From a virus: a stretch of DNA of 64,000 bases. The stretch covers positions 1-64,000 of the IMG/VR virus record IMGVR_UViG_3300009034_000033. One strand, 5' to 3'. The notes under the pieces are model-generated. The model was not told the origin of the DNA. It was given only the letters and a program-made list of their open reading frames with translations, and searched no databases. The stretch's first letter is position 1. The number at the start of each line of letters is the position of its first letter. Position numbers and translations under genes: made by a program. Shown here piece by piece: positions 5,061 through 59,903 of this stretch.

Positions 5061-5065
5061 TATTT

Positions 5066-5106: not shown

Positions 5107-5111
5107 ATTCC

Positions 5112-5480: not shown

Positions 5481-5572
5481 CTGAAACTCCCTTCAAATAT
5501 TCGAGTGAGTCCTTCTATTTGGTCCATGAATAAAATCAATTATTATTGTCTGACTTAATGCCCAGGGCTATC

Positions 5573-5605: not shown

Positions 5606-5628
5606 TATTTAACCTGGATTTCTGTAAT

Positions 5629-16605: not shown

Positions 16606-18366
16606 TTAAAGAATCTCTTCTACTGTCGAAATCCCATCCTTTTTTCGAACCATCAAGATTCGATCCCAAATTGCTGAATCTTTCAGATCATCTAAGTGAG
16701 TAATCACAAAAATAGACCGATTGCTAGATTTTTTCTCGCTTTGAAGTAATTCCAGAATTCCATCGCATCCTATGTCATCTAAACCCGAAAAAATTTCATC
16801 TAAGAATAGAAGAGAAACTGGACAAATTTTTTGGATATATGAAGCCAGAGAAAGAAGGATTGCTAAATCAATTCTTTTTCTTTCGCCTCCTGAGAGAGAA
16901 TGGTATCTTCGATCATCTTCTTCGATAAAGACTGAGAAATTTTCTCGTTGATCTCCTGCTTTAGTTTTTCTTCTGGTATCGAAACTTAAATTAAATTCTG
17001 GAGCTAAAAATCCAAGATATTCTTTCCCTTTCAAATTAAGATGAGGCAATGTTTGGTCAGCCAAAAAAGAAATAATTCCCTTAGCTCCAAAATTTTCAAC
17101 CCAGAAATTTACTAGATTTAATTGTCTCTGAAGTTTTCTCCTTTCCCTATCGCTCTTTTTCTTTTTACTTTCTACTTTAACCAAAGCTATTTCTATTTCC
17201 TTAATTCTGTTCTCAGCAGATTTCACGAGATTAAGACTTTGGGAGAAAGATTCCTGAACCGCTACAATCTGAGTTTTTAATCTATTAAGATCTGCATCTA
17301 TTTCTTTTATACCATCCTCTGCTTTCTCTCTGTCCCCTTCCACCTTAAAATAATTGGCTTCTATCTCTGCAAGTTGACTTTGGAACCCTTTTCTTTTTTC
17401 TTTTTTTCTTGCTAATTTTTTATAAGGTAAAGCTGAGCGTAGTTTTTCCCTCTGATCATCTGATACTGCTTGTTTACAGAGAGGACATTGCGCTTCTATT
17501 TGATAAAGAGCGTCCTCGCCCCTAGCAATCTCATCTTCGAGACGTTTTATCCCAGCCAAAAAAGTTTCATATTCGGTCCTTAGGCGTTCACGAATTTTTG
17601 GTTTAAGCCTTTGATCCAGGGAATCGAGTGAAAATTGCAGCTGTGTCCGTTTTTGGGTTAATGCGAGTCTCTCAGCTATAAATTGACGCTTTTTTTCTTC
17701 TACTTCTTCTTGGATCTGTTCGATGGATATTAAAAGATGTTCTTTACTCAAAGTCAGTTCGCTTCTCAAGGTTTCAATTGCCCCTTCAGAAAATGAAATA
17801 TTCTTTTCAATAACCTCTATCCCATTTTCTATTTCCCGAGAAATAGTTTTAGCTAGTTTTTGATAGATCTGAAATCTTTCAAGTCTAAGAATTTCTATTA
17901 GAATTTTCTTTCGGAATTGATCGGCTGAATTGGCAAAAGTTTCAAATCTATCTTGTGGAAGATAGATTGCGGATGCAAAAAGGTCAGAGGAGATAGGGAA
18001 ATTGAAATCTGGTATTCTTTCTCCATTCTTTCCAGTTATCTCGAAAAATGGTTTAGATTTAACTCTCCCTCGATAAAAAGTATAAGGATTTCCTCTAAAA
18101 TCAAAACTAGCTCTGACTAAGCAATCTTCGTTGGGAAGTTTCTCTCTTGAGACTACTTCAGTAGATCTACATCCTCTCGAAGTTTTTCCGAATAGACAAA
18201 AATAAAGGGCTTCGAAGATTGTAGATTTTCCAGATCCATTAGAAGAAGAGAAAGCTGAATCTTCATTCTCTCCCAAAATCAAAGTAAGAGATTTAGGAAA
18301 TAAATCAATATGAGTCTGTCTATGAGAGAAAAAATTCTCTATTTGGATCGACTTAAATTCCAACAT
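16606..18366 (-). CDS. SbcC/Rad50-like recombination ATPase (T4 gp46 type)
   Basis: 586 residues with SMC-like order. Walker A NGSGKST lies near residue 43-49. Two coiled-coil arms flank a zinc hook (CPLC). The signature SLSGGERKRIDLAI and Walker B LLFLDEIFSGLD come near the C-terminus. The size matches T4 gp46 more closely than cellular SbcC. With the gp47-like nuclease it would process DNA ends for recombination-dependent replication. It overlaps the nuclease gene by 14 bases, as is usual for this pair. Confidence 0.9.
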   Translation of the reverse strand: MLEFKSIQIENFFSHRQTHIDLFPKSLTLILGENEDSAFSSSNGSGKSTIFEALYFCLFGKTSRGCRSTEVVSREKLPNEDCLVRASFDFRGNPYTFYRGRVKSKPFFEITGKNGERIPDFNFPISSDLFASAIYLPQDRFETFANSADQFRKKILIEILRLERFQIYQKLAKTISREIENGIEVIEKNISFSEGAIETLRSELTLSKEHLLISIEQIQEEVEEKKRQFIAERLALTQKRTQLQFSLDSLDQRLKPKIRERLRTEYETFLAGIKRLEDEIARGEDALYQIEAQCPLCKQAVSDDQREKLRSALPYKKLARKKEKRKGFQSQLAEIEANYFKVEGDREKAEDGIKEIDADLNRLKTQIVAVQESFSQSLNLVKSAENRIKEIEIALVKVESKKKKSDRERRKLQRQLNLVNFWVENFGAKGIISFLADQTLPHLNLKGKEYLGFLAPEFNLSFDTRRKTKAGDQRENFSVFIEEDDRRYHSLSGGERKRIDLAILLSLASYIQKICPVSLLFLDEIFSGLDDIGCDGILELLQSEKKSSNRSIFVITHLDDLKDSAIWDRILMVRKKDGISTVEEIL

Positions 18367-19345
18367 CTATTTCTTGCTCCTTAGCTTTCTCTATAATTGC
18401 AAAGCCCCATTTCTCCAAACTATCTTTATTCAAATCAGTTTGAACCAGTTCAAGAAATTTTCTAATAAGAGCATCTATTTCGAGATTCCCTTCTAGTCTC
18501 GTTTCAATCTTTGTTTCTGGAAGACTTTTCTCGATAAAGTATTCACAACCAATTGGTATATTTCCATTAAAAGCAGTGAGTTCAAAATCACTTGGGACTT
18601 TGAGTTTTACTATACAATCTTCATAGTCTTCTGGAGAAAAAAGATTTTCTGGATCATATTCCAAGATTTTATATTTTCTAGCTTTCTTTAATTGCACCCA
18701 TTTTAATTTGAGACTTTCTGTATCCAATATAACACAAAGCTTTTTTTGGCCAGTTTCCCCAAAGGAAAGTTGGAGAGCAGAACCTACATAATGATAATTT
18801 CCGATACTTTGATAACGATGATAATGTCCCAGTAATCCTATTTCGAAAAAATCTCTCAATTCCTTAACAGAAATTTCCTCTTTCAATTTCATATCCGTAG
18901 CATCCAAAGTTCCTTCAGCCAAAGCTATGTGACCTAAAAATACATCTGCTTCTTCCCACATAAAGGTCCCTCGATTGAAAGGATAACAGAAAAAAGATTT
19001 TCCGCCAAGTTCCAGCATTTCTGGGATTTCTATCACTTTTCCCAATTCCTTAAAAGGTTCAAGAACAGTATATTTCCCAGATAGATCATGATTACCGACT
19101 AAGAAATATAACTGGAATCGTTCAAGGTCTCGAAAAGCTGAATAAATTCTTGACAGTAGCTCAACAGAAATAGTCCCCACTTTATGAAATAGATCGCCGA
19201 GAGAGAATATTGCAGCAACTTTCTCTTGATCAGCTATTTCTGCTATTTCTTCAATCGTATTTAGAATATCCTCAAGAATTCCTTGAGATGAAAGATTTCT
19301 ATAAGTTTTTCTGGCATGTAGATCAGCAAAAAATAGTATTTTCAT
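18353..19345 (-). CDS. SbcD/Mre11-like nuclease (T4 gp47 type)
   Basis: 330 residues. FADLHARKT, SLGDLFH and VGNHDLSG are the metal-binding phosphoesterase motifs I-III, and GHYHRYQ and LGHIALAEG supply later histidines. Partner of the adjacent SbcC-like ATPase. The ATG has no purine-rich SD: the preceding bases are CCCCCC-ACAAATCC. The 5' leader forms a 12-bp stem (19359-19370 with 19408-19419), so translation may be controlled. Confidence 0.88.
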   Translation of the reverse strand: MKILFFADLHARKTYRNLSSQGILEDILNTIEEIAEIADQEKVAAIFSLGDLFHKVGTISVELLSRIYSAFRDLERFQLYFLVGNHDLSGKYTVLEPFKELGKVIEIPEMLELGGKSFFCYPFNRGTFMWEEADVFLGHIALAEGTLDATDMKLKEEISVKELRDFFEIGLLGHYHRYQSIGNYHYVGSALQLSFGETGQKKLCVILDTESLKLKWVQLKKARKYKILEYDPENLFSPEDYEDCIVKLKVPSDFELTAFNGNIPIGCEYFIEKSLPETKIETRLEGNLEIDALIRKFLELVQTDLNKDSLEKWGFAIIEKAKEQEIDVGI

Positions 19346-19358
19346 GGATTTGTGGGGG

Positions 19359-19419
19359 GAGAGAGATCTTATCTAACTCAGGCAATGGGGGCAAATATTG
19401 ATTAAACAAGACCTCTCTC
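19359..19419 (-). promoter_or_regulatory. Leader stem before the SbcD-like gene
   Basis: GAGAGAGGTCTT (minus strand, 19419-19408) pairs with AAGATCTCTCTC (19370-19359) over 12 bp including one G-U. The loop is 37 nt. The stem ends in a C6 run 14-19 bases upstream of the ATG, and no SD is present. Confidence 0.45.
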
Positions 19420-19423
19420 GAGA

Positions 19424-20431
19424 TTATTTACCCGCCTTTCCTAATCTCTCCAGAAGATTTTCGATTGATTCTTCTTCATCCTCATCTTCATCCTCATCTT
19501 CATCCTTATCCTCATCGTCATCTTCATCTTCGTCTTCATCTATTGGCTTTTTCTTGGGAGTCCGACTTGGAGTCCGTTTTTTCTTTTTCTTTGGTTTATC
19601 TTCTATCTCATCCTCATCCTCATCCTCATCTTCATCCTCGTCCTCGTCTTCTTCTGGTTCCTTTCTTGCTTTTGATTTTTTTCGAGGTTTATCTTCATCC
19701 TCATCGTCTTCTCTATCATCCCTTCTGCCTTTTTTCTCGATCCAAGCTTCAAGGAGTTCTTCCAACTTATCTGGATCTGTTTCAGGAGAGATAGATCTCA
19801 AATCAAATCGATTCTCAAGCAATTCATCCAAGTCTTCTTGAGAATCTGCGATTGAACTAGGATTTCGTCTGAATCTGATTGAAGGATATTCGGTGTTTAG
19901 TCCAGTTCCTGTTCTTTCCACCGTAACATCAAAACCATCAACCGGATGGACTATATCATCTCCCCAATCTGGATCTCTCAAGTGAGCTAGGAATTCTTTC
20001 AGAAAAGTATTGCCAGAAGAGTAAATCTGGACCCCAGCATCCTCATCTTCCCTATCAAGTATATTGAAGAAAATTCTTCTGGTTCCAGATAATGGATGAT
20101 CTCTGCCTCCCCTTTTTTCCACATATATACAGATTGGACACTTTTTCTTTCCAGGACAAGTCAATGGAATAGGTCCTAGTCCATAATGCAGAAAGACCTT
20201 GCGATAAGGAACCCTTTCTCCGGATAAAGGGGGTAAAACTCGAATTCTATTTTTCCCTTCAGCCGGTTTCCACCAAGGAATATTGTATTCGCCTGATAAT
20301 TCGGCTTCTTGCTGATCATCCTCAACTTCATCCATATCAATTTCATAATCCGGTTCATACTTTAATGCTGCTCTTTTTGCTTTAGCCATTTTTCTCTCCA
20401 ATGCTTGTAATCTTGCCCAATTGCTTCTCAT
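19424..20431 (-). CDS. gp32-like single-stranded DNA-binding protein with very long acidic tail
   Basis: 335 residues. WWKPAEGKNRIRVLPP, KVFLHYGLGPIPLTCP and KKCPICIYVEKR match the OB-fold and zinc site of T4 gp32-like proteins. From about residue 240 the chain becomes alternating acidic (DED runs) and Lys/Arg/Pro blocks, ending in ENLLERLGKAGK. gp32 has a short acidic tail that recruits replication partners; here it is roughly a hundred residues. The repetitive codons make a poly-Ser shadow frame on the other strand that is not a gene. It overlaps the U32-like gene by 4 bases. Confidence 0.82.
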   Translation of the reverse strand: MRSNWARLQALERKMAKAKRAALKYEPDYEIDMDEVEDDQQEAELSGEYNIPWWKPAEGKNRIRVLPPLSGERVPYRKVFLHYGLGPIPLTCPGKKKCPICIYVEKRGGRDHPLSGTRRIFFNILDREDEDAGVQIYSSGNTFLKEFLAHLRDPDWGDDIVHPVDGFDVTVERTGTGLNTEYPSIRFRRNPSSIADSQEDLDELLENRFDLRSISPETDPDKLEELLEAWIEKKGRRDDREDDEDEDKPRKKSKARKEPEEDEDEDEDEDEDEDEIEDKPKKKKKRTPSRTPKKKPIDEDEDEDDDEDKDEDEDEDEDEEESIENLLERLGKAGK

Positions 20432-35875: not shown

Positions 35876-36481
35876 TCATGTGTCTAAAGATACAAACTGC
35901 TCGATTAAATCAGCAACGATATGTAGGATAGTAATATGGACCTCCTGGATCCTCAAAACATCATTGCTAGGTATTATGATTCTAAAATCAACTAGATCCT
36001 TTATCGTGCCTCCATTGTTACCTAAGAGACCAATAGTATTTAGACCTATTTCTTTAGCCGCTTCCAATCCTCGTATTACATTCTTGGAATTACCAGAGGT
36101 TGAGATTCCTATTGCTAAATCTCCATCTTTTCCCAAGGCTTCGATTTGACGAGCGAAGATTTCCGAAAAGCCAAAATCATTAGAAAGAGCGGATAGAATT
36201 GAAGAGTTAGTAGTTAAAGCAATAACTGGTAAAGGAACACGTTCTATTCTACATTTTCCTACCAATTCGCCAGCAAAATGTTGAGCATCTGCTGCACTCC
36301 CCCCGTTTCCGAAGATATAGATTTTTTGATCATTCTTTATATGCCAGTAAATCTGTTTCGCCATTTCAGCTATTTCTTTAGGCATATTTTGAGCCACTGT
36401 TATCTTCAGATGAGCAGACTCCATAAGTTGTTTTTTGACCTTTCCACTTAACCGAGTTAGAGACCAATAAGCTTGAGTCAT
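35876..36481 (-). CDS. gmhA: Sedoheptulose-7-phosphate isomerase
   Basis: 201 residues from an ATG overlapping the preceding stop (ATGA). SIS-fold hallmarks: IFGNGGSAADAQHFAGELVG, ISTSGNSKNVIRGLEAA, and EVHITILHIVADLIE with the catalytic His. Length and motifs match GmhA throughout. It converts sedoheptulose-7-P to D-glycero-D-manno-heptose-7-P, the substrate of the PfkB kinase at 12601. Phage gmhA genes are known but uncommon; together with kinase and phosphatase they form a near-complete pathway. Confidence 0.88.
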   Translation of the reverse strand: MTQAYWSLTRLSGKVKKQLMESAHLKITVAQNMPKEIAEMAKQIYWHIKNDQKIYIFGNGGSAADAQHFAGELVGKCRIERVPLPVIALTTNSSILSALSNDFGFSEIFARQIEALGKDGDLAIGISTSGNSKNVIRGLEAAKEIGLNTIGLLGNNGGTIKDLVDFRIIIPSNDVLRIQEVHITILHIVADLIEQFVSLDT

Positions 36482-36831
36482 TTTCCCTTTCCCTTTCTTG
36501 CATGTGCATGCCAATGATCTTTTATATTTCTCCGTTCTTCATCCACATAAAAATCATCGGTTCCAAAAAATTCTTTGGCAGCCATTTTCAAAGATTCGAT
36601 CATCTGTTTTTTGTGTTCTTCCAAAAGTGAAATGGTATGCCATTTATAAATAACCATAGGAACTTTACAAGTTTCACAGATAACTACTTTCCAAAAAGGT
36701 CCGAAAAATTTCTTCAACCAAAGTGTCTTTTCTTTGAGAAAACAGAGAGAACAATTTGATTTTAGATTTTGATTATTCGGCAATCTGTCCACCTTTTTCC
36801 AAAGGAAGGAAAGACCCTTCCTACTCTTCAA
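36478..36831 (-). CDS. Cys/His-rich protein
   Basis: 117 residues. CSLC and CETCKVPMVIYKWH suggest a zinc ribbon, and the C-terminus has DHWHAHARK, a further His cluster. Not assigned. Overlaps gmhA by four bases and heads this short operon. Confidence 0.55.
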   Translation of the reverse strand: MKSRKGLSFLWKKVDRLPNNQNLKSNCSLCFLKEKTLWLKKFFGPFWKVVICETCKVPMVIYKWHTISLLEEHKKQMIESLKMAAKEFFGTDDFYVDEERRNIKDHWHAHARKGKGK

Positions 36832-39788: not shown

Positions 39789-42374
39789 CTACACCTGCCA
39801 ATTTGATCCACTTACAAGAGTCCACGTGTCAAGAGATGTTTTTTTAATCACAACTTCATATCTTTGACTATGCCAATTATTTTCAAAAGAAAACCACTGT
39901 GCCTGACTTTGATTATTAGTACAAAAAGAAACATTATAACCTATTGGTTGTGCATACCACAATAATACTGGATTAGCAGGGGTACCGCCGCCGCCACCTA
40001 TTGGAACTTGAAATACTCCCATTTGTTGTCTCGAATAAAATCTCCATCCTTCTTTTGACCAATCATAAATAGCAGGTATATCTGTACCATGGGGCATTAC
40101 TGAATAACAATCAGGACCTGGTTGCCAATAGGAATAATATAACCAAGGATCTGATGCAGCTGCCGAAAGATCTATTGTAATTTCGTCTCCTATATCACCA
40201 GTACATCCTCTAATATAGAAAGACCAGCTCATGCGCAAAGCGATTATAGCTTGACCATTTACGCCTGGATCATCAGGAGAAGGAGTTCTATCTAGTCTAA
40301 CACGATCTGGACGATCATAGCTAGTAATTGTATAAGTACCAGAGACAAAACCTGTTCCTCCTGAAATAAAGATAGTTTGCTCCACCATACTTTCTGAAAA
40401 AATATCGCTTGAACTATCGAGAAAACGACTGCCTGCTTCGGGTGTAGATAAAGGTATCAATGTTAATGCGTCTTCTACATCAAAATGTCCACCATCTCCA
40501 ACTAAATCCGCATCAATTTCAAATCTTCCACCTTGTTCAGCAATTCCACACGTATAACAAGGAGCAGGTTCTACGTCATTAGACAATACGTGAGGAAGTC
40601 TAATCATAATATGACCTGAAACTCGCATCTTCATAAAAACTCCGCCATTACCACCATTAGAAGTAAAGGCAGCTGTTCCCGCATAACAATTGGCAACAAG
40701 ACCTGATTTATTCACAGAAAATGTAACTATAGTATACTGGCTTGCTCCCAAAGCTCCTGATCCTTGACTAGGAGATAACCAATCGGGCGTATTTACACTC
40801 CAATTCAATGTACCTGTACCAAGATTCGTAACTGTAATTGTTCTTTGAAGTAAATTCGGTCCATAATCTATTGTAGAACCAGATGTAGGATATAATCCTA
40901 AAACAGGGACACCTGCTCCTGCCACTTCCATATCTACAGGAATGTCAGTATCGCCATCATTAGATGTAAATTCTAAAACTTCTTCGTAATCGCCAGGGAG
41001 CAAACTAGTTCTATTTACAGTAAAAGTAACTATAGTAGAATTTCCCGGTTGAATTGTGCCCGAAGGTATGTCTGGGGTTATCCACGTTTCAACAGTTGAA
41101 GTTAAGCCTGTTCCAGGAGCAACCGCTGCATCCACTATAACAGTGTTAGTATTGGTATAAGTTATAATTTCAAAATCATCTCTACCAACAATGGTAATAA
41201 TTCTCCCTACCATTTGAGGTGTAAATCCACCAGTAACCGATGTTATAGTTGTAGATCCATCAGCAACGACATCATCTAATTCTAGTGGACAAACTACTTC
41301 CCAAGTAAGTGTACTGCCGCCAGTATTAGAAACTGTAATTTCTTCAGTAACAAGACCTGCTCCAAAATCCAATGAACTAGGACTAAGATCTAATACAGAT
41401 GGAGATGCAGGATTTGTGAAAATTGGGGTAGCTTCATCTCCTATATAGATAGTTTCTCGTTGAAGTAATTTATGAATATAATAAGCCCAAAGAGCATCTA
41501 TTTTCAATGCCAATCTCACATACTCTTCAGGTGTATCAATTACAACTGTTGCCCGTACCCAGAAAGAAGTAATTTCATCAACACTAAGATTGGGTAAATC
41601 TAATGCTGCACCAGCAATCGCACTATCGAGACCGACTTGGGAAGTCGCAAGCTTTATCCAAGTTTCTTGGCCAGATCCTACTAAATCTATCGGGGTAATA
41701 GAAACGGATGTTAAAAGAAGATCTCCATCATTTTTTATCCAAAGCTGAAGATCTTTTGTATCCCCTAAATCTCCTCTAAAATAATTTGGAGGAAATGCAA
41801 AGATAGGATTGGCATCAGAATATACGTTTATACAAGAACCAGTTTCAAAAAGATTACCACTATATTCTATGACAACCAATTCGGCTGAAGGAATATTTGA
41901 TACCATGCTTATTCTGCCAGCCAATGATCCTGAAGTTTTCAATAATCCTGTCACAATACTGATAGCAGGAATTTGTCCTCGCATAAATTTCGTCACTAGA
42001 AAAGACGAAGATAAATTGGATACGATAGCTATAGTCCCAGATAAAGCTTTTAGATTGGTTGTGAGAATTCCTATAAGAGAAGATATTGCATCAATTGAAC
42101 CGGAGAGTGCCTGTGTAAGGGATAGGATTGCTGATGTAGTTGCTATACCAGCTATAGTTCCTGATAATGAATAAGTTACGACTAAACCAGCTGCTGTAGT
42201 TACTACAGTATCTATGGATCCTGATAAGAAACATTCAAGGGTTAAAGATGCTGATGTGGAAGAAACTGCGTTAATTGAGCCGGATAATTCAACCGCAGCC
42301 CCTGCTGTCTGCCATGATCCTTGGTAGGTTAATTTTTGCCACGATCCTTGGTATTCCTGTGATTGAGGAGCCAT
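39789..42374 (-). CDS. Large virion protein with 20-residue repeats and BACON-like domains
   Basis: 861 residues. Residues 1-30 repeat YQGSWQ twice. About residues 30-170 comprise some seven units of 20-21 residues beginning LSGSI or LSGTI. Then follow a domain shared with the 44678 protein, two immunoglobulin-like repeats (SLDFGAGLVTEEITVSNTGG, and a second with NLGTGTLNWSVNTPDWLSPS) resembling BACON domains, and small SVTGGFTPQMVG modules also present in the tailspike next door. The arrangement suggests an extended adhesin that contacts glycans or the host surface. Confidence 0.6.
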   Translation of the reverse strand: MAPQSQEYQGSWQKLTYQGSWQTAGAAVELSGSINAVSSTSASLTLECFLSGSIDTVVTTAAGLVVTYSLSGTIAGIATTSAILSLTQALSGSIDAISSLIGILTTNLKALSGTIAIVSNLSSSFLVTKFMRGQIPAISIVTGLLKTSGSLAGRISMVSNIPSAELVVIEYSGNLFETGSCINVYSDANPIFAFPPNYFRGDLGDTKDLQLWIKNDGDLLLTSVSITPIDLVGSGQETWIKLATSQVGLDSAIAGAALDLPNLSVDEITSFWVRATVVIDTPEEYVRLALKIDALWAYYIHKLLQRETIYIGDEATPIFTNPASPSVLDLSPSSLDFGAGLVTEEITVSNTGGSTLTWEVVCPLELDDVVADGSTTITSVTGGFTPQMVGRIITIVGRDDFEIITYTNTNTVIVDAAVAPGTGLTSTVETWITPDIPSGTIQPGNSTIVTFTVNRTSLLPGDYEEVLEFTSNDGDTDIPVDMEVAGAGVPVLGLYPTSGSTIDYGPNLLQRTITVTNLGTGTLNWSVNTPDWLSPSQGSGALGASQYTIVTFSVNKSGLVANCYAGTAAFTSNGGNGGVFMKMRVSGHIMIRLPHVLSNDVEPAPCYTCGIAEQGGRFEIDADLVGDGGHFDVEDALTLIPLSTPEAGSRFLDSSSDIFSESMVEQTIFISGGTGFVSGTYTITSYDRPDRVRLDRTPSPDDPGVNGQAIIALRMSWSFYIRGCTGDIGDEITIDLSAAASDPWLYYSYWQPGPDCYSVMPHGTDIPAIYDWSKEGWRFYSRQQMGVFQVPIGGGGGTPANPVLLWYAQPIGYNVSFCTNNQSQAQWFSFENNWHSQRYEVVIKKTSLDTWTLVSGSNWQV

Positions 42375-51109: not shown

Positions 51110-51649
51110 TCAGTCTCCTATAATATGATTTTTGAAAACTCTCTTTATTTCTTCCACATCTTCTTTTTGAAACAAAAGAAAAGGTCGAGCAGGAATGCCA
51201 GGGTGACTGACTCTGCTTCTATATAAAGGACCATCAGTAGTTATAAATCTCAAAACTCTTGCTCTTTTAGGAGTTATAATACTCGGAGAAGTTCCCGCTT
51301 GATGAGTTGCTGCATAAACAAGAGCTGATCCCATTTTAAGAGAATTCCTACTTAAGGTATAAACACTACCTTTTCCTGTTGTGCTTAATGTCGAAAGTTT
51401 TAACATGCCAGATTTTTGTAAAGGATTTCGGTTCCCTCCGCCTCTTTTAGCAATTGTATTGGGCGCAAGAGGATTCCAACGAGGCCTTCCTCGCGCTCTA
51501 AAATTCCTGTCTATAGATCTTATCATCCAAACTCCACTTTTTTTGAGAGCAGGACGCAAATCTTTCCCTTTTAATTCAGCAATTCTAAGAAAATGTTGCA
51601 ATTGTTTATCGTCTATTGTCACTTTCAAATCTACTAAAGCTCCAGGCAT
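51110..51649 (-). CDS. Phage virion morphogenesis (tail completion) protein
   Basis: 179 residues from the ATG at 51649; the longer frame overlaps the epimerase gene. IDRNFRARGRPRWNPLAPNT, PLQKSGMLKLS, YAATHQAG and IPARPFLLF match the P2 gpS/Mu gpG-like tail-completion family. Confidence 0.72.
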   Translation of the reverse strand: MPGALVDLKVTIDDKQLQHFLRIAELKGKDLRPALKKSGVWMIRSIDRNFRARGRPRWNPLAPNTIAKRGGGNRNPLQKSGMLKLSTLSTTGKGSVYTLSRNSLKMGSALVYAATHQAGTSPSIITPKRARVLRFITTDGPLYRSRVSHPGIPARPFLLFQKEDVEEIKRVFKNHIIGD

Positions 51650-51677
51650 TGGTCTCTTTTTCTCCAAATAAAGAATC

Positions 51678-52634
51678 CTAATAAAATTTCCGATAAAATT
51701 CAATAGTGTCCGTTACTATTTTCATCAGATCAAACTGTGGTGCCCATTTAAGTCTCTCTTGAATTTTCCCTATATTGGGCAATTTATCAAAGGCTTCTGC
51801 ATAGAGTTTTCCAAATATTTCTTTTGGATTTACATAATCTATCTCAGATTCACTTTTGACTTTATTTTTTACCAAATGAGCCAGATCTCCAATTGTTATC
51901 ATATTCTCTATATTACCAATGTTCCAGATCTCATTTTTCTCTTCCGATCTAGCTATTTTCAAAATTCCATCTACAATATCTAAGACATGAGTAAAAGCTC
52001 GTTGCTGAGTACCTGAGCCAAAGACTGAGATAGGTTCATTTTTCAAAGCCGCAGTAACAAATCTTGGAAGAACAAAACCCCCATCAGGTTTTTGTCTAGG
52101 ACCAGCTATATTGAAAGGTCTTATAATATGGTATCTGAGTTCGCTTACTCTCGCTTTATTTATAGTCATTATCTCCGCTAAAAGTTTTCCTGCTCCATAT
52201 TCAGTTCTTATTTCTATTTGTCCAGGGATAATTTTACGTACATTTTCAGTAAAAATTCCATCTCGACCATAGACTTCAGAAGTGGATATTAGTATAAGAT
52301 CTGCATCTTTTTCCAAAGCAAAATCTATGACTGTTTTGGTATCTTTTATTATTTTATAGGCCATTTCACCAGCGTGAGCTAAAACTCCAGCAGGTCCTAC
52401 TGGAGAAGCTAAATGAAAGATCGTATCAAAATCACCAATTGCTCCAGTTGGAAGGAAACCCGCTAATGGACAAAGAGCAATTGAGCAATCACTATAATCT
52501 TCGAAAAAGTCTGGCTCAACGGCATTAGTAGAAAGATTGTCGATGATTCCGATTTGAGTTTCTTCTTCTAATAATCTTTCTGTTAAATGAGATCCAAGAA
52601 AACCTAAACCGCCTGTAATCAATGCTCTTGTCAT
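51678..52634 (-). CDS. NAD-dependent sugar epimerase/dehydratase
   Basis: 318 residues. GGLGFLGSHLTE is the Rossmann GxxGxxG motif. STSEVYG and YGAGKLLAE contain the catalytic Ser/Thr and YxxxK. PFNIAGPRQKPDGGFVLPRF is typical of UDP-glucuronate decarboxylases and dTDP-glucose dehydratases. It makes or converts a nucleotide sugar. HldD-like epimerase is possible but its usual motifs are not clear. Confidence 0.8.
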   Translation of the reverse strand: MTRALITGGLGFLGSHLTERLLEEETQIGIIDNLSTNAVEPDFFEDYSDCSIALCPLAGFLPTGAIGDFDTIFHLASPVGPAGVLAHAGEMAYKIIKDTKTVIDFALEKDADLILISTSEVYGRDGIFTENVRKIIPGQIEIRTEYGAGKLLAEIMTINKARVSELRYHIIRPFNIAGPRQKPDGGFVLPRFVTAALKNEPISVFGSGTQQRAFTHVLDIVDGILKIARSEEKNEIWNIGNIENMITIGDLAHLVKNKVKSESEIDYVNPKEIFGKLYAEAFDKLPNIGKIQERLKWAPQFDLMKIVTDTIEFYRKFY

Positions 52635-52644
52635 AATTATAACC

Positions 52645-53340
52645 TCAAAAATCTATATTCCATTTTTTCAAAAAATAATCTCTATTTAATTTAGCTTTTT
52701 CTATTTGACCAGGAATTCGGTGGCGAGTATTCGAAACTGCATGATCAAATCTTTTACCCCCATGTTCAATCACACAATTCTGAGCAATAGCAAATCTATA
52801 ATCCAATCTTTTAATCTTTTCACAGTAATCTCTATCTTCTCGGCCAATCACCCCTTTCCGATAAGCTATATCCATAAAACCTACCTCGTTTATTACTCTT
52901 CTAGGTATATAAGTTCCACAACCCATTCCAATATCATTTCTGGTAAATTTTATTTCTTCTCCAGTTTTATTTTCCGGATGTTGATCTCGATTCATTACAT
53001 TGGTTGAAATAGGAGCCAGAATTCCTATCTCTCTATGTTCTTGTATTATTGCATGCATTATTATGTCTATATCCTCAGTCACTATATAAATATCATCATT
53101 GAAAACGATTACATCGCTAGGAAAAGTATAGCCAAGACCACAATTGATAGCCATGCAAAAAGCAAAAGGCTGAGGGGCTGGGATATAAGTAAAATCATGG
53201 AAATCTTTTTTTATACTCTTCGATAAACCATCATCTACTACTAAAAGTGGAGAATATCGAACTTTCTCAAAATAAGATTCAGCGAAGATCTCAAAAATAT
53301 CATCGAATTTGGCTGTAACAATACACCAAACAGGAATCAT
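52645..53340 (-). CDS. GT2-like glycosyltransferase
   Basis: 231 residues. VIVFNDDIYI provides a DxD-like motif (NDD). GMGCGTYIPRRVINEVGFMD matches the acceptor region of rhamnosyltransferase-like GT2 enzymes, and GREDRDYCEKI supplies the ED motif. Four-base overlap with the upstream gene. Confidence 0.7.
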   Translation of the reverse strand: MIPVWCIVTAKFDDIFEIFAESYFEKVRYSPLLVVDDGLSKSIKKDFHDFTYIPAPQPFAFCMAINCGLGYTFPSDVIVFNDDIYIVTEDIDIIMHAIIQEHREIGILAPISTNVMNRDQHPENKTGEEIKFTRNDIGMGCGTYIPRRVINEVGFMDIAYRKGVIGREDRDYCEKIKRLDYRFAIAQNCVIEHGGKRFDHAVSNTRHRIPGQIEKAKLNRDYFLKKWNIDF

Positions 53341-54152
53341 TTTCTTGGTTTCCTTGGCTTGGTCCTGACAAGAACGCCTCCATTAAAAGTCGACAGAGGA
53401 TAACTATTCAATTCCTTGTCTAATTGAAAAGTATTTGTAGAAGAAAGAAAATCTTCAACTGATCCGAGTGGATCTGCTTTGAAATCCCAGTGTCTTTCTT
53501 TTTTGAATTCATCAGAAACTATTCTGCAATATGTATCACAGACAAGAAAGTAGGATCCTTTCATAATAAATCTTTCATAAATCTCCAACTCTTCTCTCAC
53601 ATAATCTCTGTCATGATCAGAATCCAAAAATACAACAACTCGCTTTCTGGAATCTATAGATTTTGACAGATGGTCGAGAATTTTAGGATCGGTAGACTCG
53701 CCATTGAGCATTATAATTTCAATGCCCCATTTCTGCATTGCCAAAGCTTTTGCTTGGATTCTTGGTCCTTGAGTTATTTCAGGATTGCTTTTATCTATTG
53801 TATAAATTTGCCCTTTTTTCCTTCCCAAATGATGAAGGAGTGAGGCTAGATAAAGAGAAGTTCCCCCAAACGCTGTGCCAGTCTCGATGATTATGTGTGG
53901 ATTGGCTTTAATTATAGCCTGTTGAATTAAGAAATAATCAATAGGAAATTGAACAGAAGAAATTCCATAAAATTTCTGCCACATCCATCTATGCCAAGAA
54001 GCTGCTTCAAGCCAAAGATTACTAAGTACGACTAAGGTCTCAGTATCGTCAATTCCAAAAGGAATTACCGCGCCTGATTCATCAATCTTATTTCCTTCTA
54101 TCGGTTGAGAAGTTTGTATAACTATATCTTGCACGTTAATGTCTCCTCTCAT
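53337..54152 (-). CDS. CmcI-like cephalosporin hydroxylase/methyltransferase family protein
   Basis: 271 residues. IIIETGTAFGGTSLYLASLL is SAM-binding motif I, IYTIDKSNPEI follows strand 2, and VVFLDSDHDRDYVREELEIY matches the CmcI/RmbI-type metal site. Related enzymes in sugar clusters O-methylate rhamnose or similar sugars. The gene has its own leader with a TATAAT and element E. Confidence 0.7.
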   Translation of the reverse strand: MRGDINVQDIVIQTSQPIEGNKIDESGAVIPFGIDDTETLVVLSNLWLEAASWHRWMWQKFYGISSVQFPIDYFLIQQAIIKANPHIIIETGTAFGGTSLYLASLLHHLGRKKGQIYTIDKSNPEITQGPRIQAKALAMQKWGIEIIMLNGESTDPKILDHLSKSIDSRKRVVVFLDSDHDRDYVREELEIYERFIMKGSYFLVCDTYCRIVSDEFKKERHWDFKADPLGSVEDFLSSTNTFQLDKELNSYPLSTFNGGVLVRTKPRKPRK

Positions 54153-54164
54153 TGTACTCTCTCA

Positions 54165-54205
54165 TGGTTCCACAGGATTTCATATTTGGCCCACAGAGGA
54201 CTTAT
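54165..54205 (-). repeat. Dispersed element E, diverged copy
   Basis: Minus strand: AAGTCCTCTGTGG, then GCCAAATATGAAATCC. It resembles the 11515 copy (GTCTGTGGATCAAATATGAA). It starts about three bases after a TATAAT at 54214-54209, which could be a promoter -10. Confidence 0.4.
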
Positions 54206-54249
54206 TTGATTATAGCTGATACATAATATCATTTGACGTCATTGAGATC

Positions 54250-55164
54250 CTATATTGGCCCAGATTTTAATTCTGTTTCTGGGGTTCGTCTTTTCCATCT
54301 ATCCGGAATAAAAGTTGGAAATTTATCTGGCCAATTCCAGATTTCTTCCACCGATTTTCCAAACCAAGGATGCGTTCTAATTTCAATTGGATGATCTTCA
54401 GGCATCATTTTTACCATTCGATCGAAAGGATATTTTGGAATCTGATCTCGATACTCTTCTAAAACAGGGGGAGCTAAGACTTTGTATTTGATATTAGGTC
54501 TTTTATTAGGAAAAAACCAATTCAATTGTCTTACTGTAAAAATTCTCTTTACATAAGTTCGATACCATGTACTGACATAACCATAATGATAAAAAGGGAT
54601 TCCAGTTCTTTTCGAAGTAAAGATTCTGTGAATTTCTTGGCCTCTCAGCATTGGGAAAATATGCCAATTAGAATATGTCAATTCTGGATGATTTTTATAG
54701 AGTCTCAAAGTAAAATTACCATGAGCATCAGTATATCTGTAGTCAAAAGATCCCTTGAAAAGATAGTGTTGGAGTTCTATGACAGAAAATTCCGGTAAAA
54801 TATCAGCAATTTTCTTAAAATCTTCCAGATCTATGAATTCGTCGTGATCTCTTATTACTATGACTTCGCTGTCTTTCAATAACTCAAGTCCTTTTTGTCT
54901 TAATTCCCTTTTGTCTTTGACTTTGCCAAGAGGATAATATTTTATAATTCCTAAAGGATCAGGAAATGAATCAATCACTTCTTTGGTTCCATCAATAGAT
55001 AACCCATCTTCGGTAGAAATCTGTGGATCGGAAAAAGAATCTGCTCCTTCTACTATAGCAATTTTAGAGCCAGGAAAAGCTTCAGCTAAACTATAAGTAT
55101 TTAGAAGAGAATACCAAAGATAATCCCCTCCATTTAGAACAATTGACATAAAACCGAAAATCAT
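54250..55164 (-). CDS. GT2-like glycosyltransferase paralogue (short)
   Basis: 304 residues. SIVLNGGDYLWYSLLNTYSL, GLSIDGTKEVIDSF and IRDHDEFIDLEDF follow the scheme of family-2 transferases (nucleotide-binding strand, DGT motif, acidic metal-binding motif). The next gene upstream has the same domain with 35-40 percent similarity by eye. Target unknown. Confidence 0.65.
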   Translation of the reverse strand: MIFGFMSIVLNGGDYLWYSLLNTYSLAEAFPGSKIAIVEGADSFSDPQISTEDGLSIDGTKEVIDSFPDPLGIIKYYPLGKVKDKRELRQKGLELLKDSEVIVIRDHDEFIDLEDFKKIADILPEFSVIELQHYLFKGSFDYRYTDAHGNFTLRLYKNHPELTYSNWHIFPMLRGQEIHRIFTSKRTGIPFYHYGYVSTWYRTYVKRIFTVRQLNWFFPNKRPNIKYKVLAPPVLEEYRDQIPKYPFDRMVKMMPEDHPIEIRTHPWFGKSVEEIWNWPDKFPTFIPDRWKRRTPETELKSGPI

Positions 55165-55171
55165 ATTTCAC

Positions 55172-56551
55172 CTAATCATTTCTTTTCAGAGCCTTCATCC
55201 ACAGATTAGTGCCCCTTGCCATTAGATTAACAACTTCTAGGTTATGATTAGAGACCAGATTTTTTATAGCTCCTTTGGAAGGAACCGAAAAATGTTGAAG
55301 AGGACTCCAAAGAAAATGTCTTTTATCTTGAGTCCAGGAAGCTTCAGGATCTGGCCACGTCATTATTAAAGCGCCTCCAGGTTTTAACCACAATGATAGA
55401 TTTTTTATAGCTTTTATAGGGTTTTTTACATGCTCAAAAGCATCTATTCCGAAGACAAGATCAAAGGAATTTTTTGGAAACCATGCTTCTTCAAGAGTAG
55501 CTCTAACCATTTTCAAACCTAATTTTCGACCATGTTGTACAGCAAAAAGGGAAGGATCTAATCCCCAACATTCATTTTCCGAATTCAAATGACTAAGGAC
55601 TAAACCAGGTCCAGAACCAAATTCTAAAATTCTAAGAGCTTGGAAACTATGGGTTAAGACCACTCCTTTGTCGCCTGTAAGAGTTAAAAAAGCAGGTTGA
55701 CTGTGTATAGCTTCTCTAGTTAAACCTGAAAAAGGATGATTTCGCATAATCTTTGGATGATATTCCAATGTAACAGGTTCTAAATCAGAGAAATGAAGTT
55801 TGGGGGAGATCTCGCCTCCTTGAAAAAATGGCTCTCTAGCTTCTATCCATTCTATTGGATCTACTACTTTCCAAGTTGGAATTTGCCTGATTGATCTATG
55901 ATACCAATTTTTCTCTTTGATTTCTCTCGTTCGATCTTTCTTAAATCGTCTTAAGGAACGAATAGAACCATATCTATAAATGGGTACATCCATTCTAAGG
56001 AAGGTGCCAGTTTCTCGGAATTTGCCGGTATCTACTACTTCAATAAATTTATGCCATTCAACAAAACCAATTCCACCTATATTCTTTATTATTTTTTCAG
56101 AATAAGAAGAAAAACTATCAGGAATTTTATATCCGAAATCACCCCAGAAATCGATATGTTTAAGATCAACGACATCTGTATTATTTATTCTTTGATCTAT
56201 TCGAAGAAAATCCTCCGGTTTTATAATTTCGTCTTCTTCTCTTAGAAAGATATAATCCATGTCTCCTCGATGTTTTAGAAATTCATTTAATAAATGTCTT
56301 CTATCTCCAACCTTTCCTAACTTTACATGTTTAATTCTATCAGATTGAAAAGAATTTATTATAGCTCCAGTACCATCCACTGACAAACCATTCTTTAATT
56401 CAGATTGATCATAGAAATTATCGCTACCCTCTATCACTATAATCTCAGATCCATCAGCTAAATTGCAGAGATCTAAGGTATTGAGAAGAGAATACCAAAG
56501 ATAATATCCACCATTAAGTACAACATAACAAAAAGAATAAGTATGTCTCAT
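55172..56551 (-). CDS. GT2-like domain fused to a SAM methyltransferase
   Basis: 459 residues from the ATG with GAGGAAAA upstream. Residues 1-290 parallel the 54250 protein (VVLNGGYYLWYSLLNTL, GLSVDGTGAIINSF, LREEDEIIKPEDF). From about 310 a class I methyltransferase follows: RILEFGSGPGLVLSHL, CWGLDPS, FDLVFGIDAFEHVKNP, LKPGGALIMTWP. The methyltransferase lacks the zinc ribbon usual in its family; a ribbon of that kind ends the upstream GT9 gene. Confidence 0.75.
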   Translation of the reverse strand: MRHTYSFCYVVLNGGYYLWYSLLNTLDLCNLADGSEIIVIEGSDNFYDQSELKNGLSVDGTGAIINSFQSDRIKHVKLGKVGDRRHLLNEFLKHRGDMDYIFLREEDEIIKPEDFLRIDQRINNTDVVDLKHIDFWGDFGYKIPDSFSSYSEKIIKNIGGIGFVEWHKFIEVVDTGKFRETGTFLRMDVPIYRYGSIRSLRRFKKDRTREIKEKNWYHRSIRQIPTWKVVDPIEWIEAREPFFQGGEISPKLHFSDLEPVTLEYHPKIMRNHPFSGLTREAIHSQPAFLTLTGDKGVVLTHSFQALRILEFGSGPGLVLSHLNSENECWGLDPSLFAVQHGRKLGLKMVRATLEEAWFPKNSFDLVFGIDAFEHVKNPIKAIKNLSLWLKPGGALIMTWPDPEASWTQDKRHFLWSPLQHFSVPSKGAIKNLVSNHNLEVVNLMARGTNLWMKALKRND

Positions 56552-56561
56552 CAGATTTTCC

Positions 56562-57956
56562 TCAATGAGATTTATAAATAGAAAGGACTTCGCTTGCCAT
56601 TCTCTTGTGATATTCCTGTTTTCCAGGGGTAAAATAATCTCCAGAAAACTTACCTGCGCCTCCACTAAAATACTCTTCTTCATAATCTACTGTTAACATA
56701 CGAGGATCAGAATATATACTGGAACAGGAAAGACATCTATAAAAATCAACTCGCTTCTCATAAATTTCCGAAAACCATTTACCTTGAATAGAATTTTCTA
56801 TCTTACCTGGCGAATTACAGAAGGGACAATGAATATTTGTAATTCTGGCAATTCTCCGAACATATTTCCCTTTTCCTTCTATAAAATCAAGAAAAGTTCT
56901 TAAGACTCTTTCGGGGGTAAGCAAATACATACATCTTCCAGAACGATAAGATCCACTCAAATTTGAACATTCAGGACAAGGATTATGTACATCTCCACAA
57001 GGGATACAATCAAGCTCAAATTCTGGGTATAGAGCAACAGTATTAGGATAATATTTAATCCTATTTTCTGGTTTAATATTTCCGAATAAAGCAAGAGTTG
57101 GAATCCCAAAAATAGAGGCCAAATGGAGAAGACCAGAATCTGGAGCAATGAAATAATCACACAATTCCATAGCACAAGCACATTCTAAAAGAGTTGTCCT
57201 ATCTATGAAATTCAAAAGATGATCACCGTTCCATTGATTCAATTTATAATTCCAATGATCTTGACCAAATAAAGCAACCTCGAATCCTTCATTCACTAAA
57301 CCTTGGATAAGATCGCCTAAGTAATCAAAAGGATAAACCCTAACAGGAGAAGCAGAAGTAGTCTGAATTCCTACCAAAGATCTATTAGAATCTCTTCCCC
57401 CTTTTTCCAAGATAGCTTGACCTTTCATTTTCAACTCAGAGGGAAATTCCAAGAAATCATATTTATAATTTGCTAAAGATCCAGCATATCGACCAAAGAT
57501 CTCAGTTCTTACTTTCTCATTTCTTCTGTCCTCTCTTTCTGGAACCCAACATAAATCGACCGTTCCATCATACCTAGAAAAATTCGATTTAACATCTCCG
57601 AAAACTTGGTTTAAGAATGGAAACTGTTCTACAATTGGGGTATAAAGAAGATCAGAATAAAAATCTACCTTTGTTTTAGGATGAGCATAAGCCAAGGGAT
57701 AGGCTAAAAAATATGCACAGGCAATAACATCACCAAAACCTCTATTCCGGATCACAGCAATATGTTGACCTGTTCTTGCTAAAGCTTCTAAATGACCTCC
57801 TTGTTTTATTCCTTTTACTCTAAAACCTGGATAAGCTGCCATAAGTCTAGTCGCATCTTCTACTCTAACGTCTCTAGCAATCCCTCGTCTAAAACGACCG
57901 AAATGAGTTGCTATTTCTCTTAAATTACCTTCCCAAGTTATTTGTACTGTTCCCAT
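56562..57956 (-). CDS. GT9 (heptosyltransferase-like) protein with C-terminal zinc ribbon
   Basis: 464 residues. IAVIRNRGFGDVIACAYFLA starts the first Rossmann domain. DSGLLHLASIFGIPTLALFG is the GT9 nucleotide-sugar motif, seen in ADP-heptose transferases. It ends in a zinc ribbon (CPFCNSPG...CLSCSSIYSDPR then DYEEEYFSGG) that normally begins a methyltransferase. With gmhA, the heptose kinase and the GmhB-like gene it suggests heptose transfer. Confidence 0.8.
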   Translation of the reverse strand: MGTVQITWEGNLREIATHFGRFRRGIARDVRVEDATRLMAAYPGFRVKGIKQGGHLEALARTGQHIAVIRNRGFGDVIACAYFLAYPLAYAHPKTKVDFYSDLLYTPIVEQFPFLNQVFGDVKSNFSRYDGTVDLCWVPEREDRRNEKVRTEIFGRYAGSLANYKYDFLEFPSELKMKGQAILEKGGRDSNRSLVGIQTTSASPVRVYPFDYLGDLIQGLVNEGFEVALFGQDHWNYKLNQWNGDHLLNFIDRTTLLECACAMELCDYFIAPDSGLLHLASIFGIPTLALFGNIKPENRIKYYPNTVALYPEFELDCIPCGDVHNPCPECSNLSGSYRSGRCMYLLTPERVLRTFLDFIEGKGKYVRRIARITNIHCPFCNSPGKIENSIQGKWFSEIYEKRVDFYRCLSCSSIYSDPRMLTVDYEEEYFSGGAGKFSGDYFTPGKQEYHKRMASEVLSIYKSH

Positions 57957-58046
57957 TAGATTAAATCCTCTTCTCCCAAGTAAAGGGAAAAGAAAAAATG
58001 AAACCTTGGAAGAAGAGGACCTCCGACTATATATTCAAAGAACGGA

Positions 58047-58967
58047 TTACGATCCGGTTCCAGTTAAAGCGCCGACCATCAGATAGCCTGCTTCTGCGCA
58101 AACTAACTTCTGAGTCTGAATAACAGAAACCTCGTAAACTGTTCCTCTGCTTTCTTCATCTCTCCAATCACGAGTGATGTAATTCTGAGACCGTATAGTC
58201 AAGCCCAAAGACATCATCTGAAGAGAAGGTGCACCGTCGATATACGCGACCAGAACATTATCATTCCATATATCCGATATGCTCGCTGTCTGGCCTTCCA
58301 TTGAAGTATCTTCAATTGGGTAAGCTACGACAGGCTTAAGTCCCCAGATTCTTGGCGGCAATTCGCCTTTCTCTGCATATTCCTTGAAAGGAGTGTAGGC
58401 CAGATTTTTCAACCAGACCAACAGGGCTTGAGCAGTCTCTTCGTTCAGGACCATGGTATTTGCGTTCTTGCCACAGTTCCTTCTCACAGTTCTCTTTGCC
58501 TGATTAACGTCCGCGTGTGGATCTTGACCACTAGTTGCATTCCACGGAGTCACAACATTGTGGAAATACGGGATAAAAGATGTGCTCTGAGCGATCGCCT
58601 GGACAGCTTTCTCCGCTCCTCTCCGAATCATTGACGTTAAGAATTCGACTGAAGAAATAGCTGGCTTTATCGCGACATCCGCATTATCCCGAACTCTATC
58701 TGGAACCAGATGACTCAACGCCTCCTCTTCGCAACTATAGTCAACTGGTGTAGCTGCCCAATCAACTCGATTGGATTTGGTTCCAATGGCTCTCCTGGTC
58801 TTGACATCTCGTAGATGTTCTCTTCCGAATTTCCAGTATTTGTCTGCTTCTTTCGTCACAGCCAAAGGTGGAAATATTATTTCTCCAACAAAACCAGGTT
58901 CACCGTATTTGATTGCCACATTGGAAAGAGGTACACTAACATGAACTTCTCCAACGTTCTTAGGCAT
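58047..58967 (-). CDS. Major capsid protein
   Basis: 306 residues, HK97-fold-like. KYGEPGFVGEIIFPPLAV in the N-arm, TMVLNEETAQALLVWLKN in the middle and QNYITRDWRDEESRG with a beta-rich C-terminus are typical of coat proteins of siphoviruses lacking a cleaved delta domain. Base composition is slightly richer in GC than the neighbours, as in highly expressed genes. Decoration protein and scaffold are upstream. Confidence 0.8.
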   Translation of the reverse strand: MPKNVGEVHVSVPLSNVAIKYGEPGFVGEIIFPPLAVTKEADKYWKFGREHLRDVKTRRAIGTKSNRVDWAATPVDYSCEEEALSHLVPDRVRDNADVAIKPAISSVEFLTSMIRRGAEKAVQAIAQSTSFIPYFHNVVTPWNATSGQDPHADVNQAKRTVRRNCGKNANTMVLNEETAQALLVWLKNLAYTPFKEYAEKGELPPRIWGLKPVVAYPIEDTSMEGQTASISDIWNDNVLVAYIDGAPSLQMMSLGLTIRSQNYITRDWRDEESRGTVYEVSVIQTQKLVCAEAGYLMVGALTGTGS

Positions 58968-59450: not shown

Positions 59451-59903
59451 TTAAGAATCAGTGTCTTCTCCGTATCTTAGATCATCATCGTCAGGGTGAT
59501 ATGCCCAAGCTTCAACATCGCCAAGATCGAATATAGGAGTGAAATCTTTAGTTGAGGAGTCTATTATGTCTGGAATATCTATATCGTTTATAGAAGCTCC
59601 CATTTCTAGTAGTTTAAGCAATCTCTCTCCTTCGTCTCGGTAGTCTCTCACCCATTCAAAAAGTCCTTCTTGAACCTGTTTAGCATATATTCGTTTTAAT
59701 TCTTTATATGTAGCGAAATATTTAGAAATCGCTGTTAATACTGGTGGAATAGGAGCAGTGAAAGGAACAGTATATCCAATTATTCCAAGACGTAAATCGA
59801 TCTCTATATCTGCATCCACAATGAATTTAGTTATATATGCAGACTCATTCGAAGGGATTGCTTTGTGAGTATCAAGGACGTCCTGATAAACAGAATATGC
59901 CAT
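59451..59903 (-). CDS. Head-tail connector protein
   Basis: 150 residues. Helical N-terminus (DTHKAIPSNESAYITKFIVDADIEIDLRL) with later helices, as in Mu gp36-like connector proteins (DUF1320). Acidic tail. Lies between scaffold and decoration genes. Confidence 0.6.
   Translation of the reverse strand: MAYSVYQDVLDTHKAIPSNESAYITKFIVDADIEIDLRLGIIGYTVPFTAPIPPVLTAISKYFATYKELKRIYAKQVQEGLFEWVRDYRDEGERLLKLLEMGASINDIDIPDIIDSSTKDFTPIFDLGDVEAWAYHPDDDDLRYGEDTDS

Follow-up and report, generated by a model that had tools for sequence, protein, structure and literature searches.

The window considered here, i.e. 64,000 nucleotides of a 64.7-kb IMG/VR phage contig whose source record is linear and incomplete, carries at 51678-57956 a run of six glycan genes on the minus strand, which is also the strand of the head and tail genes. 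This cassette is located between the genes for the major capsid protein (MCP) and the tail-completion protein; its edges proved exact in the ORF check, and the six co-directional genes reported at this place in the preliminary description were borne out by ORFs as well as Pfam and PHROG matches. A tail tube gene (Phage_tube_2, E 2e-19) is also found among the flanking genes. The features are as follows:

58047-58967, minus strand: MCP, upstream neighbour (phrog_1005, E 1e-47)
57966-58019, minus strand: hairpin with a 15-16-bp inverted repeat, lying after the MCP stop and ahead of the GT9 start
56562-57956, minus strand: GT9 (heptosyltransferase-type) glycosyltransferase, 464 aa (Pfam Glyco_transf_9, E 4e-12)
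55172-56551, minus strand: GT-A-like/class I SAM methyltransferase fusion, 459 aa (Methyltransf_23 in the C-half, E 2.9e-21)
54250-55164, minus strand: GT-A-fold glycosyltransferase by predicted fold, 304 aa, motif IRDHDEF
53337-54152, minus strand: CmcI/rhamnosyl O-methyltransferase family protein, 271 aa (Pfam RMNT_CmcI, E 2.5e-38)
52645-53340, minus strand: GT2-like glycosyltransferase, 231 aa (phrog_2456 glycosyltransferase, E 7e-6)
51678-52634, minus strand: extended SDR nucleotide-sugar dehydratase/epimerase/decarboxylase (Epimerase, E 8e-37; phrog_540, E 1e-47)
51110-51655, minus strand: tail-completion protein, downstream neighbour (Phage_tail_S PF05069, E 6e-15)

The hairpin in front of the cassette (RNA MFE -29.6 kcal/mol, z -4.0, equalled by 0/200 shuffles) is a possible attenuator or RNA-processing site. 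Regarding the gene calls, the families given previously hold, while the start of the fusion gene had to be moved from 56683 to 56551, most likely the true start, where an ATG is preceded by a Shine-Dalgarno-like GAGG; the fusion ORF consequently abuts the GT9 ORF and the 122-base overlap disappears. A programmed frameshift joining the two ORFs was dropped, as the fusion has its own ATG and GAGG.

The GT9 protein consists of an N-terminal small beta domain of about 50 aa followed by the GT9 core, with a catalytic-type Asp76 in the motif GFGDV, a four-Cys finger C317/C320/C330/C342 (C-x2-C-x9-C-x11-C) and, at the C-terminus, a zinc-ribbon tail (C377/C380/C408/C411) like those found ahead of class I methyltransferases; one methyltransferase appears to be divided over two ORFs. 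The best PDB match is heptosyltransferase II (1psw, E 1.6e-8) and the NCBIfam matches are heptosyltransferase II/I-like. The predicted structure is a poor model (pLDDT 36), with pLDDT 73-87 in the N-terminal part; no Pfam family matches the N-terminal domain, of which a further copy was found, among the fetched loci, only in the relative L026.

In the fusion protein, the GT-A-like domain covers aa 1-295, with the acidic motif REEDE, and the methyltransferase core extends over about aa 300-440; its N-half shares 34% identity with the protein of the next gene (54250-55164). For the latter, a GT-A fold is predicted by an AlphaFold model (pLDDT 65, with better values for most of residues 1-130; pTM 0.68), which is closest to SunS in Foldseek (E 2e-7) and aligns with WrtF at a VIA Z of about 15 (164 residues, 2.7 A). 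The 52645-53340 protein exhibits the motifs NDD and GREDRDYC and matches NCBIfam rhamnosyltran (E 0.0015) and Pfam GT2 (E 0.029), both GT2 assignments from sequence being weak in Pfam (E about 0.03, below the Pfam cut-off). The CmcI-type protein reaches E 4e-15 against NCBIfam RhmsylMtase, below cut-off. The SDR, with the motifs STSEVYG and YxxxK, seems most like a UDP-glucuronate decarboxylase, its best PDB match being UDP-glucuronic acid decarboxylase 1 (E 1e-34); its identification as HldD was rejected, with 67 bits against TIGR02197 for a cut-off of 274.6 and higher scores for UXS/RmlB-type models. None of the six proteins shows a clear membrane segment (no hydrophobic 19-residue segment above KD 1.64), nor do their Pfam families include a flippase, a lipid-carrier transferase or an oligosaccharyltransferase, which makes a soluble acceptor the simplest assumption.

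Three further genes, outside the cassette, are relevant to heptose:

35876-36514, minus strand: GmhA-like sedoheptulose-7-phosphate isomerase (NCBIfam TIGR00441, E 2.2e-58)
15752-16489, minus strand: GmhB-like heptose-1,7-bisphosphate 7-phosphatase (NCBIfam PRK08942, E 1.3e-37)
12601-13701, minus strand: PfkB-family HldA-like heptose-7-phosphate kinase (TIGR02198 rfaE_dom_I, E 1.2e-26; PfkB, E 1.7e-7)

The window thus putatively encodes the isomerase, kinase and phosphatase steps of NDP-heptose synthesis, these functions being given as putative since all the matches lie below the NCBIfam equivalog cut-offs. A heptose nucleotidyltransferase (HldE C-domain or HddC) was searched for as PF01467 or PF00483, neither of which occurs in this incomplete linear contig; candidates are present in the relatives L080, L039 and L031. 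Being far from the cassette, the heptose genes could serve another purpose. The preliminary description had passed over these genes, and likewise the apparent splitting of a methyltransferase, the likely fusion start and the recurrence among relatives described below.

Codon usage of the cassette lies inside the phage's own distribution, in which the MCP gene is the outlier, and a recent foreign insertion was rejected on this basis. In L026, whose MCP is 46% identical to that of the window, GT9, fusion (4488-5870) and GT-A genes follow the MCP gene in the same order; identity amounts to 45% for GT9 over nearly the whole length and 45% for GT-A, against 48-49% for the neighbouring structural genes, and the GFGDV motif is shared. 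As judged from these sequences, the front genes of the cassette have diverged as fast as the MCP. With 3/6 genes recurring in order behind the MCP, chance is not the explanation for the cassette, and the conserved order together with the similar identities of glycan and structural genes indicates that cassette and capsid module have long been inherited together; considering the phage-like codon usage as well, the six genes are old residents of the phage.

More broadly, a glycosyltransferase (GT) lies within 12 kb of the MCP gene, at various positions, in 16/50 MCP relatives, including 8/15 of the nearest; as nearly half of the nearest lack one there, the trait is dispensable. All the GT matches are on the MCP strand, which is weak evidence since most nearby genes are. 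The placements are diverse: in L047 the tail terminator and the tail tube are separated by GT4-GT4-GT9-radical SAM, L080, L039 and L031 have larger sets at this position, where GmhA, an HddA-like kinase, a nucleotidyltransferase and GT9 are joined in one cassette, L014 harbours GT9-radSAM/MTase-GT2 between portal and protease, and in L092 GT4-GT2 follows the terminator and a gene in the tube position. L026 itself was reached through the MCP alignment only. Single-protein IMG/VR scans with the GT-A and CmcI proteins returned no matches, nor did an alignment of the GT-A pair when run against IMG/VR and GTDB genomes; in tblastn against 50,697 phage records, the GT-A gene and CmcI had no homologue and the GT9 and methyltransferase matches were only partial. 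The MCP scan of GTDB genomes yielded two MAG contigs of weak similarity, one assigned to Desulfobacterales and one to Bathyarchaeota, which are too distant to name the host.

We propose, with a probability of about 0.55, that the cassette builds a glycan and attaches it to a structural protein of the phage itself, late and in the host cytoplasm; this glycan would be methylated and would probably contain heptose. GmhA, the HldA-like kinase and GmhB would convert sedoheptulose-7-phosphate to heptose-1-phosphate, to be activated by a nucleotidyltransferase of the host or of the missing part of the genome. GT9 would then start the glycan by linking a heptose to Ser/Thr in one of the abundant proteins of the virion, the GT-A enzymes would extend the chain with a second NDP-sugar supplied by the SDR, and the two methyltransferases would cap it with O-methyl groups. 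From the gene content and context we infer late expression, the sugars, the order of transfer and the acceptor, for which the MCP would be the leading candidate and the tail tube the second. In mycobacteriophages, capsid and tail-tube C-termini carry glycans, according to PMC12619734. An MCP C-terminal extension with Ser/Thr is clear only in the window (TGTGS, short) and in L026 (QASS); absent from most other GT-bearing relatives, it was set aside as acceptor and kept as a lead only. A more specific version can be put forward tentatively, at less than even odds, namely phage-encoded protein O-heptosylation in a lineage of uncultured tailed phages, where the phage's own heptose precursor, a TibC-like GT9, GT-A enzymes and O-methyltransferases would serve to decorate capsid or tail-tube subunits with methylated heptoglycans, and where different cassettes would have been swapped repeatedly within the head-tail module. 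Of the two options left side by side in the preliminary description, i.e. glycosylated virion proteins or a surface glycan, the comparative evidence favours the former and makes the latter less attractive.

Remodelling of the host surface is nevertheless the likeliest rival, although we consider it improbable: LPS core, O-antigen or capsule would be altered against superinfection or re-adsorption of progeny to debris, late expression merely timing the surface change. GT9 enzymes act more often on LPS, typically as heptosyltransferases, the window GT9 matches heptosyltransferase II/I-like models, and the phage brings its own heptose enzymes. Pelagimyophage GTs and rfaE have been given this interpretation, the authors regarding the GTs as enzymes that modify the O-antigen (PMC7029224). 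Against this, a late operon leaves little time for a surface change, the cassette, unlike Gtr-type serotype conversion, includes neither a clear membrane protein nor a flippase or a carrier transferase, and the recurrent head-tail placement, together with front genes that change as fast as the MCP, better fits a virion target. It is improbable that the genes are unrelated or selfish cargo without a single product, piling up at tolerant sites behind the MCP and between neck and tube: the structural-module gap of L003 does hold 322-aa and repeat proteins, those of L027 and L028 hold 314-319-aa and GmhB-like genes, and cassette contents differ widely among relatives, but the cargo shows a strong bias towards glycan enzymes, L026 retains the GT9/fusion/GT-A order and the domain split, undecayed, with identities of 30-45%, and heptose synthesis, nucleotidyltransferase and GT9 are joined in the cassettes of three relatives. 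Base-modifying genes usually stand among replication genes and not behind the MCP, and we know of no GT9 or CmcI-type enzyme involved in DNA glycosylation. Decoration of a hydroxymethylated phage base against restriction is therefore very unlikely, even if viral GTs can glycosylate DNA, going by the title of Pyle et al. 2024 in PMC12619734, and the phage encodes a thymidylate-synthase-family protein (2164-3261), a dCMP deaminase and MazG-like proteins, since the first of these looks dUMP-type by eye from a conserved Asn and the Pfam matches of the scanned ORFs include no hypermodification family.

If virion glycosylation is indeed the function, it would be widespread across a large uncultured phage lineage, and exchangeable enzyme sets would be placed amid genes that encode their likely targets; by swapping such sets at the head-tail junction, phages would have a route to a varied particle surface. 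To our knowledge, glycosylation of tailed-phage virions is documented in very few lineages. Besides, heptose would connect the assembly of phages with a sugar whose other known occurrences are in LPS and a small number of autotransporters. The idea can be tested, as some relatives have cassettes and others do not.

Among known systems, the Gtr serotype-conversion modules of temperate phages likewise comprise phage-borne GTs, but in Pfam and hydrophobicity analyses the six proteins include no GtrA-type flippase and no membrane GtrB/GtrC. Pelagimyophages and cyanomyophages possess GTs and an rfaE-type heptose gene as in the window; however, many such genes belong to a hypervariable region for host recognition and have been interpreted as modifying the O-chain (PMC7029224), whereas those of the window lie behind the MCP and those of its relatives between tail terminator and tube. 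With the protein heptosyltransferases TibC/AAH (PMC4358343), the window GT9 shares a heptosyltransferase-type GT-B, a beta domain at the N-terminus and a catalytic-type Asp, Asp76 being, by motif, the likely counterpart of TibC Asp-110; its four-Cys finger may correspond to the four-Cys iron finger of TibC. Protein heptosylation by TibC depends on its Asp and four Cys, and the donor, ADP-D,D-heptose, belongs to the product class of GmhA, an HldA/HldE-type kinase and GmhB (PMC4358343). The window GT9 differs in its smaller N-terminal domain, its extra zinc-ribbon tail and its finger spacing, which in TibC is C-x2-C-x15-C-x11-C by residue numbers (PMC4358343), and it is not listed at E 0.1 by the TibC/Aah model TIGR04414; the L080 GT9 reaches E 1.7e-11 with this model, below cut-off, and E 1.6e-4 with TibC chains. 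The TibC substrate is an autotransporter, unlike the virion acceptor proposed here. Finally, decoration of capsid or tail proteins by phage GTs was demonstrated or inferred for mycobacteriophages such as Che8 and Rita (Freeman et al. 2023, as cited in PMC11256854 and PMC12619734), and in Rhodococcus phages a glycosyltransferase is paired with a methyltransferase (PMC13313380). The window has phage-encoded GTs associated with structural genes, in another lineage and with more and different enzymes (GT9, GT-A pairs, CmcI MTase, SDR, and radical SAM in relatives); unlike the mycobacteriophage systems, it carries putative heptose synthesis genes, and its glycan genes stand inside the head-tail module, those of Maravista lying near the 3' end of the genome. 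Virion glycosylation being already known from mycobacteriophages, the window system would be a new variant of that kind.

All six genes that the preliminary description had placed between the major capsid protein (MCP) gene and the tail-completion gene were found, all on the minus strand, in a window that takes in 64,000 bases of a linear, incomplete IMG/VR contig 64,722 bases long. Along transcription, the cassette encodes a GT9 protein with extra domains, a fusion of a GT-A-like domain with a class I methyltransferase, a second GT-A-like protein, a CmcI/rhamnosyl-O-methyltransferase family protein, a GT2-like protein and an extended SDR, whose nearest type is UDP-glucuronate decarboxylase. 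The flanking genes are as follows.

58047-58967, minus strand, MCP (phrog_1005)
51110-51655, minus strand, tail-completion gene (Phage_tail_S), with the tail tube and then the tape measure after it

The codon usage of the cassette is that of the remaining phage genes, and between the end of the MCP gene and the beginning of the GT9 gene lies a strong hairpin (57966-58019; z -4) with no clear U-tract. The fusion gene was confirmed, its start being most likely at 56551 and not at 56683. As for the two GT2-type assignments, both are weak on sequence alone, and the one for the 304-aa protein (54250-55164) gains support from structure: an AlphaFold model built on four homologues (pLDDT 65, better in the N-terminal half) finds its best matches in GT-A enzymes, namely SunS (Foldseek, E 2e-7) and WrtF (VIA, Z about 15).

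MCP alignments led to 80 IMG/VR loci, among which the most informative relative is L026 (MCP 46% identical). Its decoration-type and upstream neck-type proteins are 48-49% identical to those of the window, and GT9 (45%), fusion (30%) and GT-A (45%) genes follow in the same order directly behind the MCP. Next come a GT4, a methyltransferase, a radical SAM protein, a GT2-like protein and an SDR. The SDRs are only 25% identical, the terminal GT2s cannot be aligned and nothing in L026 corresponds to CmcI; the cassette has thus kept its front half, and its back half has been exchanged. Besides, L026 carries an 11-bp inverted repeat right after the MCP stop (2148-2169). The gene upstream of the decoration and MCP genes in the window (59451-59903), putatively neck/adaptor-like by position, has a 49% identical counterpart at the same place in L026, whereas in other relatives an adaptor-like gene is located behind the MCP.

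The N-terminal half of the fusion and the following GT-A protein are paralogues (34% identity across 295 residues). The stand-alone copy retains an acidic DHDE motif, common to L026, whereas the fused copy reads REEDE in the window and DPCE in L026 and may thus be catalytically altered. In the GT9 protein, Asp76 lies within GFGDV, and its N-terminal 50 residues make up a small beta domain, confident within an otherwise poor structure model, for which no Pfam match was found. Its C-terminal end is a zinc-ribbon segment (CPFC...CLSC...YSDP...YEEEYF; 56562-56800) of the kind with which zinc-ribbon methyltransferases typically begin, and the catalytic core ends the next protein (55172-55670), with the GT-A domain between. 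The simplest reading would be that a methyltransferase was interrupted by a GT-A domain and that two neighbouring proteins now carry one half each. The arrangement is identical in L026; the split is therefore old, and the GT9 and fusion proteins may act together.

Fifty MCP-relative records, picked as largely non-redundant, were searched with GT2, GT4, GT9 and SDR profiles and matches were mapped relative to the MCP. Glycosyltransferases lie within 12 kb of the MCP in 16 of the 50, and in 8 of the 15 with MCP identity of at least 34%, counts that are lower bounds since many records are short. Cassette sites vary: the MCP/tail-completion gap (window), directly behind the MCP (L026), between portal and protease (L014), between tail terminator and tail tube (L047), or just behind a tube-position gene (L092). 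Between terminator and tube, L080, L039 and L031 carry some 10-20 genes. Among these are two GT4 genes, GT9, B12-radical SAM, methyltransferases, GmhA, an HddA-like kinase, a sugar-nucleotidyltransferase and GT2, and the tail tube comes after the set; in L039, a SAM synthetase (18363-19484) adjoins the radical SAM and methyltransferase genes within the cassette. No glycosyltransferase cassette was found in L027 and L028 (MCP 41-43%), nor any annotated glycosyltransferase near the MCP of five named phages (MCP 25-28%), where many genes are hypothetical. Although the assemblies are metagenomic, recurrence across independent contigs makes an assembly artefact less likely.

Reading all remaining ORFs outside the cassette uncovered three heptose-type genes, each with a score short of its NCBIfam equivalog cut-off.

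35876-36514, GmhA-like isomerase (TIGR00441, E 2e-58)
12601-13701, HldA-like PfkB kinase (TIGR02198, E 1e-26)
15752-16489, GmhB-like phosphatase (PRK08942, E 1e-37)

No nucleotidyltransferase was found in the incomplete record; the host could provide it. At the contig end, a truncated methyltransferase upstream of the head protease (L023 197-823, at about 64096-64722 of the window's own record and outside the window) suggests that the missing part of the genome holds more glycan genes. GmhB-like proteins also lie between the MCP and tail-completion genes of L027 (7528-8037) and L028 (5986-6510); as their DxD motif reads GRAG, these phosphatases, retained among the structural genes of the operon, are probably inactive. 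Other window genes encode a thymidylate-synthase-family protein (2164-3261) that comes nearest to the methanogen-type model, bears a long lysine-rich tail and is relevant to possible base modification, and an 861-aa tail-region protein with a viral BACON domain (39789-42374).

The reading that would fit these genes best is that virion proteins are modified in the cytoplasm, because the predicted enzymes are soluble, come without carrier, flippase or membrane component and are sited with structural genes, and because the cassette has been passed down together with the capsid module in one branch and other glycan sets take its place elsewhere in the same module. Heptose is the most specific sugar to which the genes point, given GmhA, kinase, GmhB and GT9 in the window, GmhA, HddA-like kinase, nucleotidyltransferase and GT9 in one cassette in relatives, and the match of one such relative's GT9 to the TibC/Aah family of bacterial autotransporter heptosyltransferases; the two methyltransferases of the cassette suggest O-methyl capping. 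Regarding the acceptor, the MCP is a candidate lead to which the cassette's place in the window and in L026 points, as do short C-termini with Ser/Thr: the MCP carries an extra TGTGS in the window and QASS in L026, and in close relatives without the cassette it ends at a conserved LT, without such a short C-terminus. In mycobacteriophages, glycans sit on capsid and tube C-termini (PMC12619734). The tail tube is another candidate, to which the site of the cassette in the L047 group points.

Virion glycosylation as a kind is already known, since it is reported for mycobacteriophages in PMC11256854 and PMC12619734, both citing Freeman et al. 2023; no description of the embedded, exchangeable, heptose-linked cassettes of this lineage was found in the open-licence full texts searched. 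The window GT9 has no match to the TibC-family model, so membership is not claimed. In TibC, mutation of the candidate catalytic base Asp-110 or of the iron finger (Cys-339/342/358/370) abolishes protein heptosylation (PMC4358343); the window GT9 has Cys317/320/330/342, spaced C-x2-C-x9-C-x11-C against C-x2-C-x15-C-x11-C in TibC, and its Asp76 would correspond to Asp-110 by motif.
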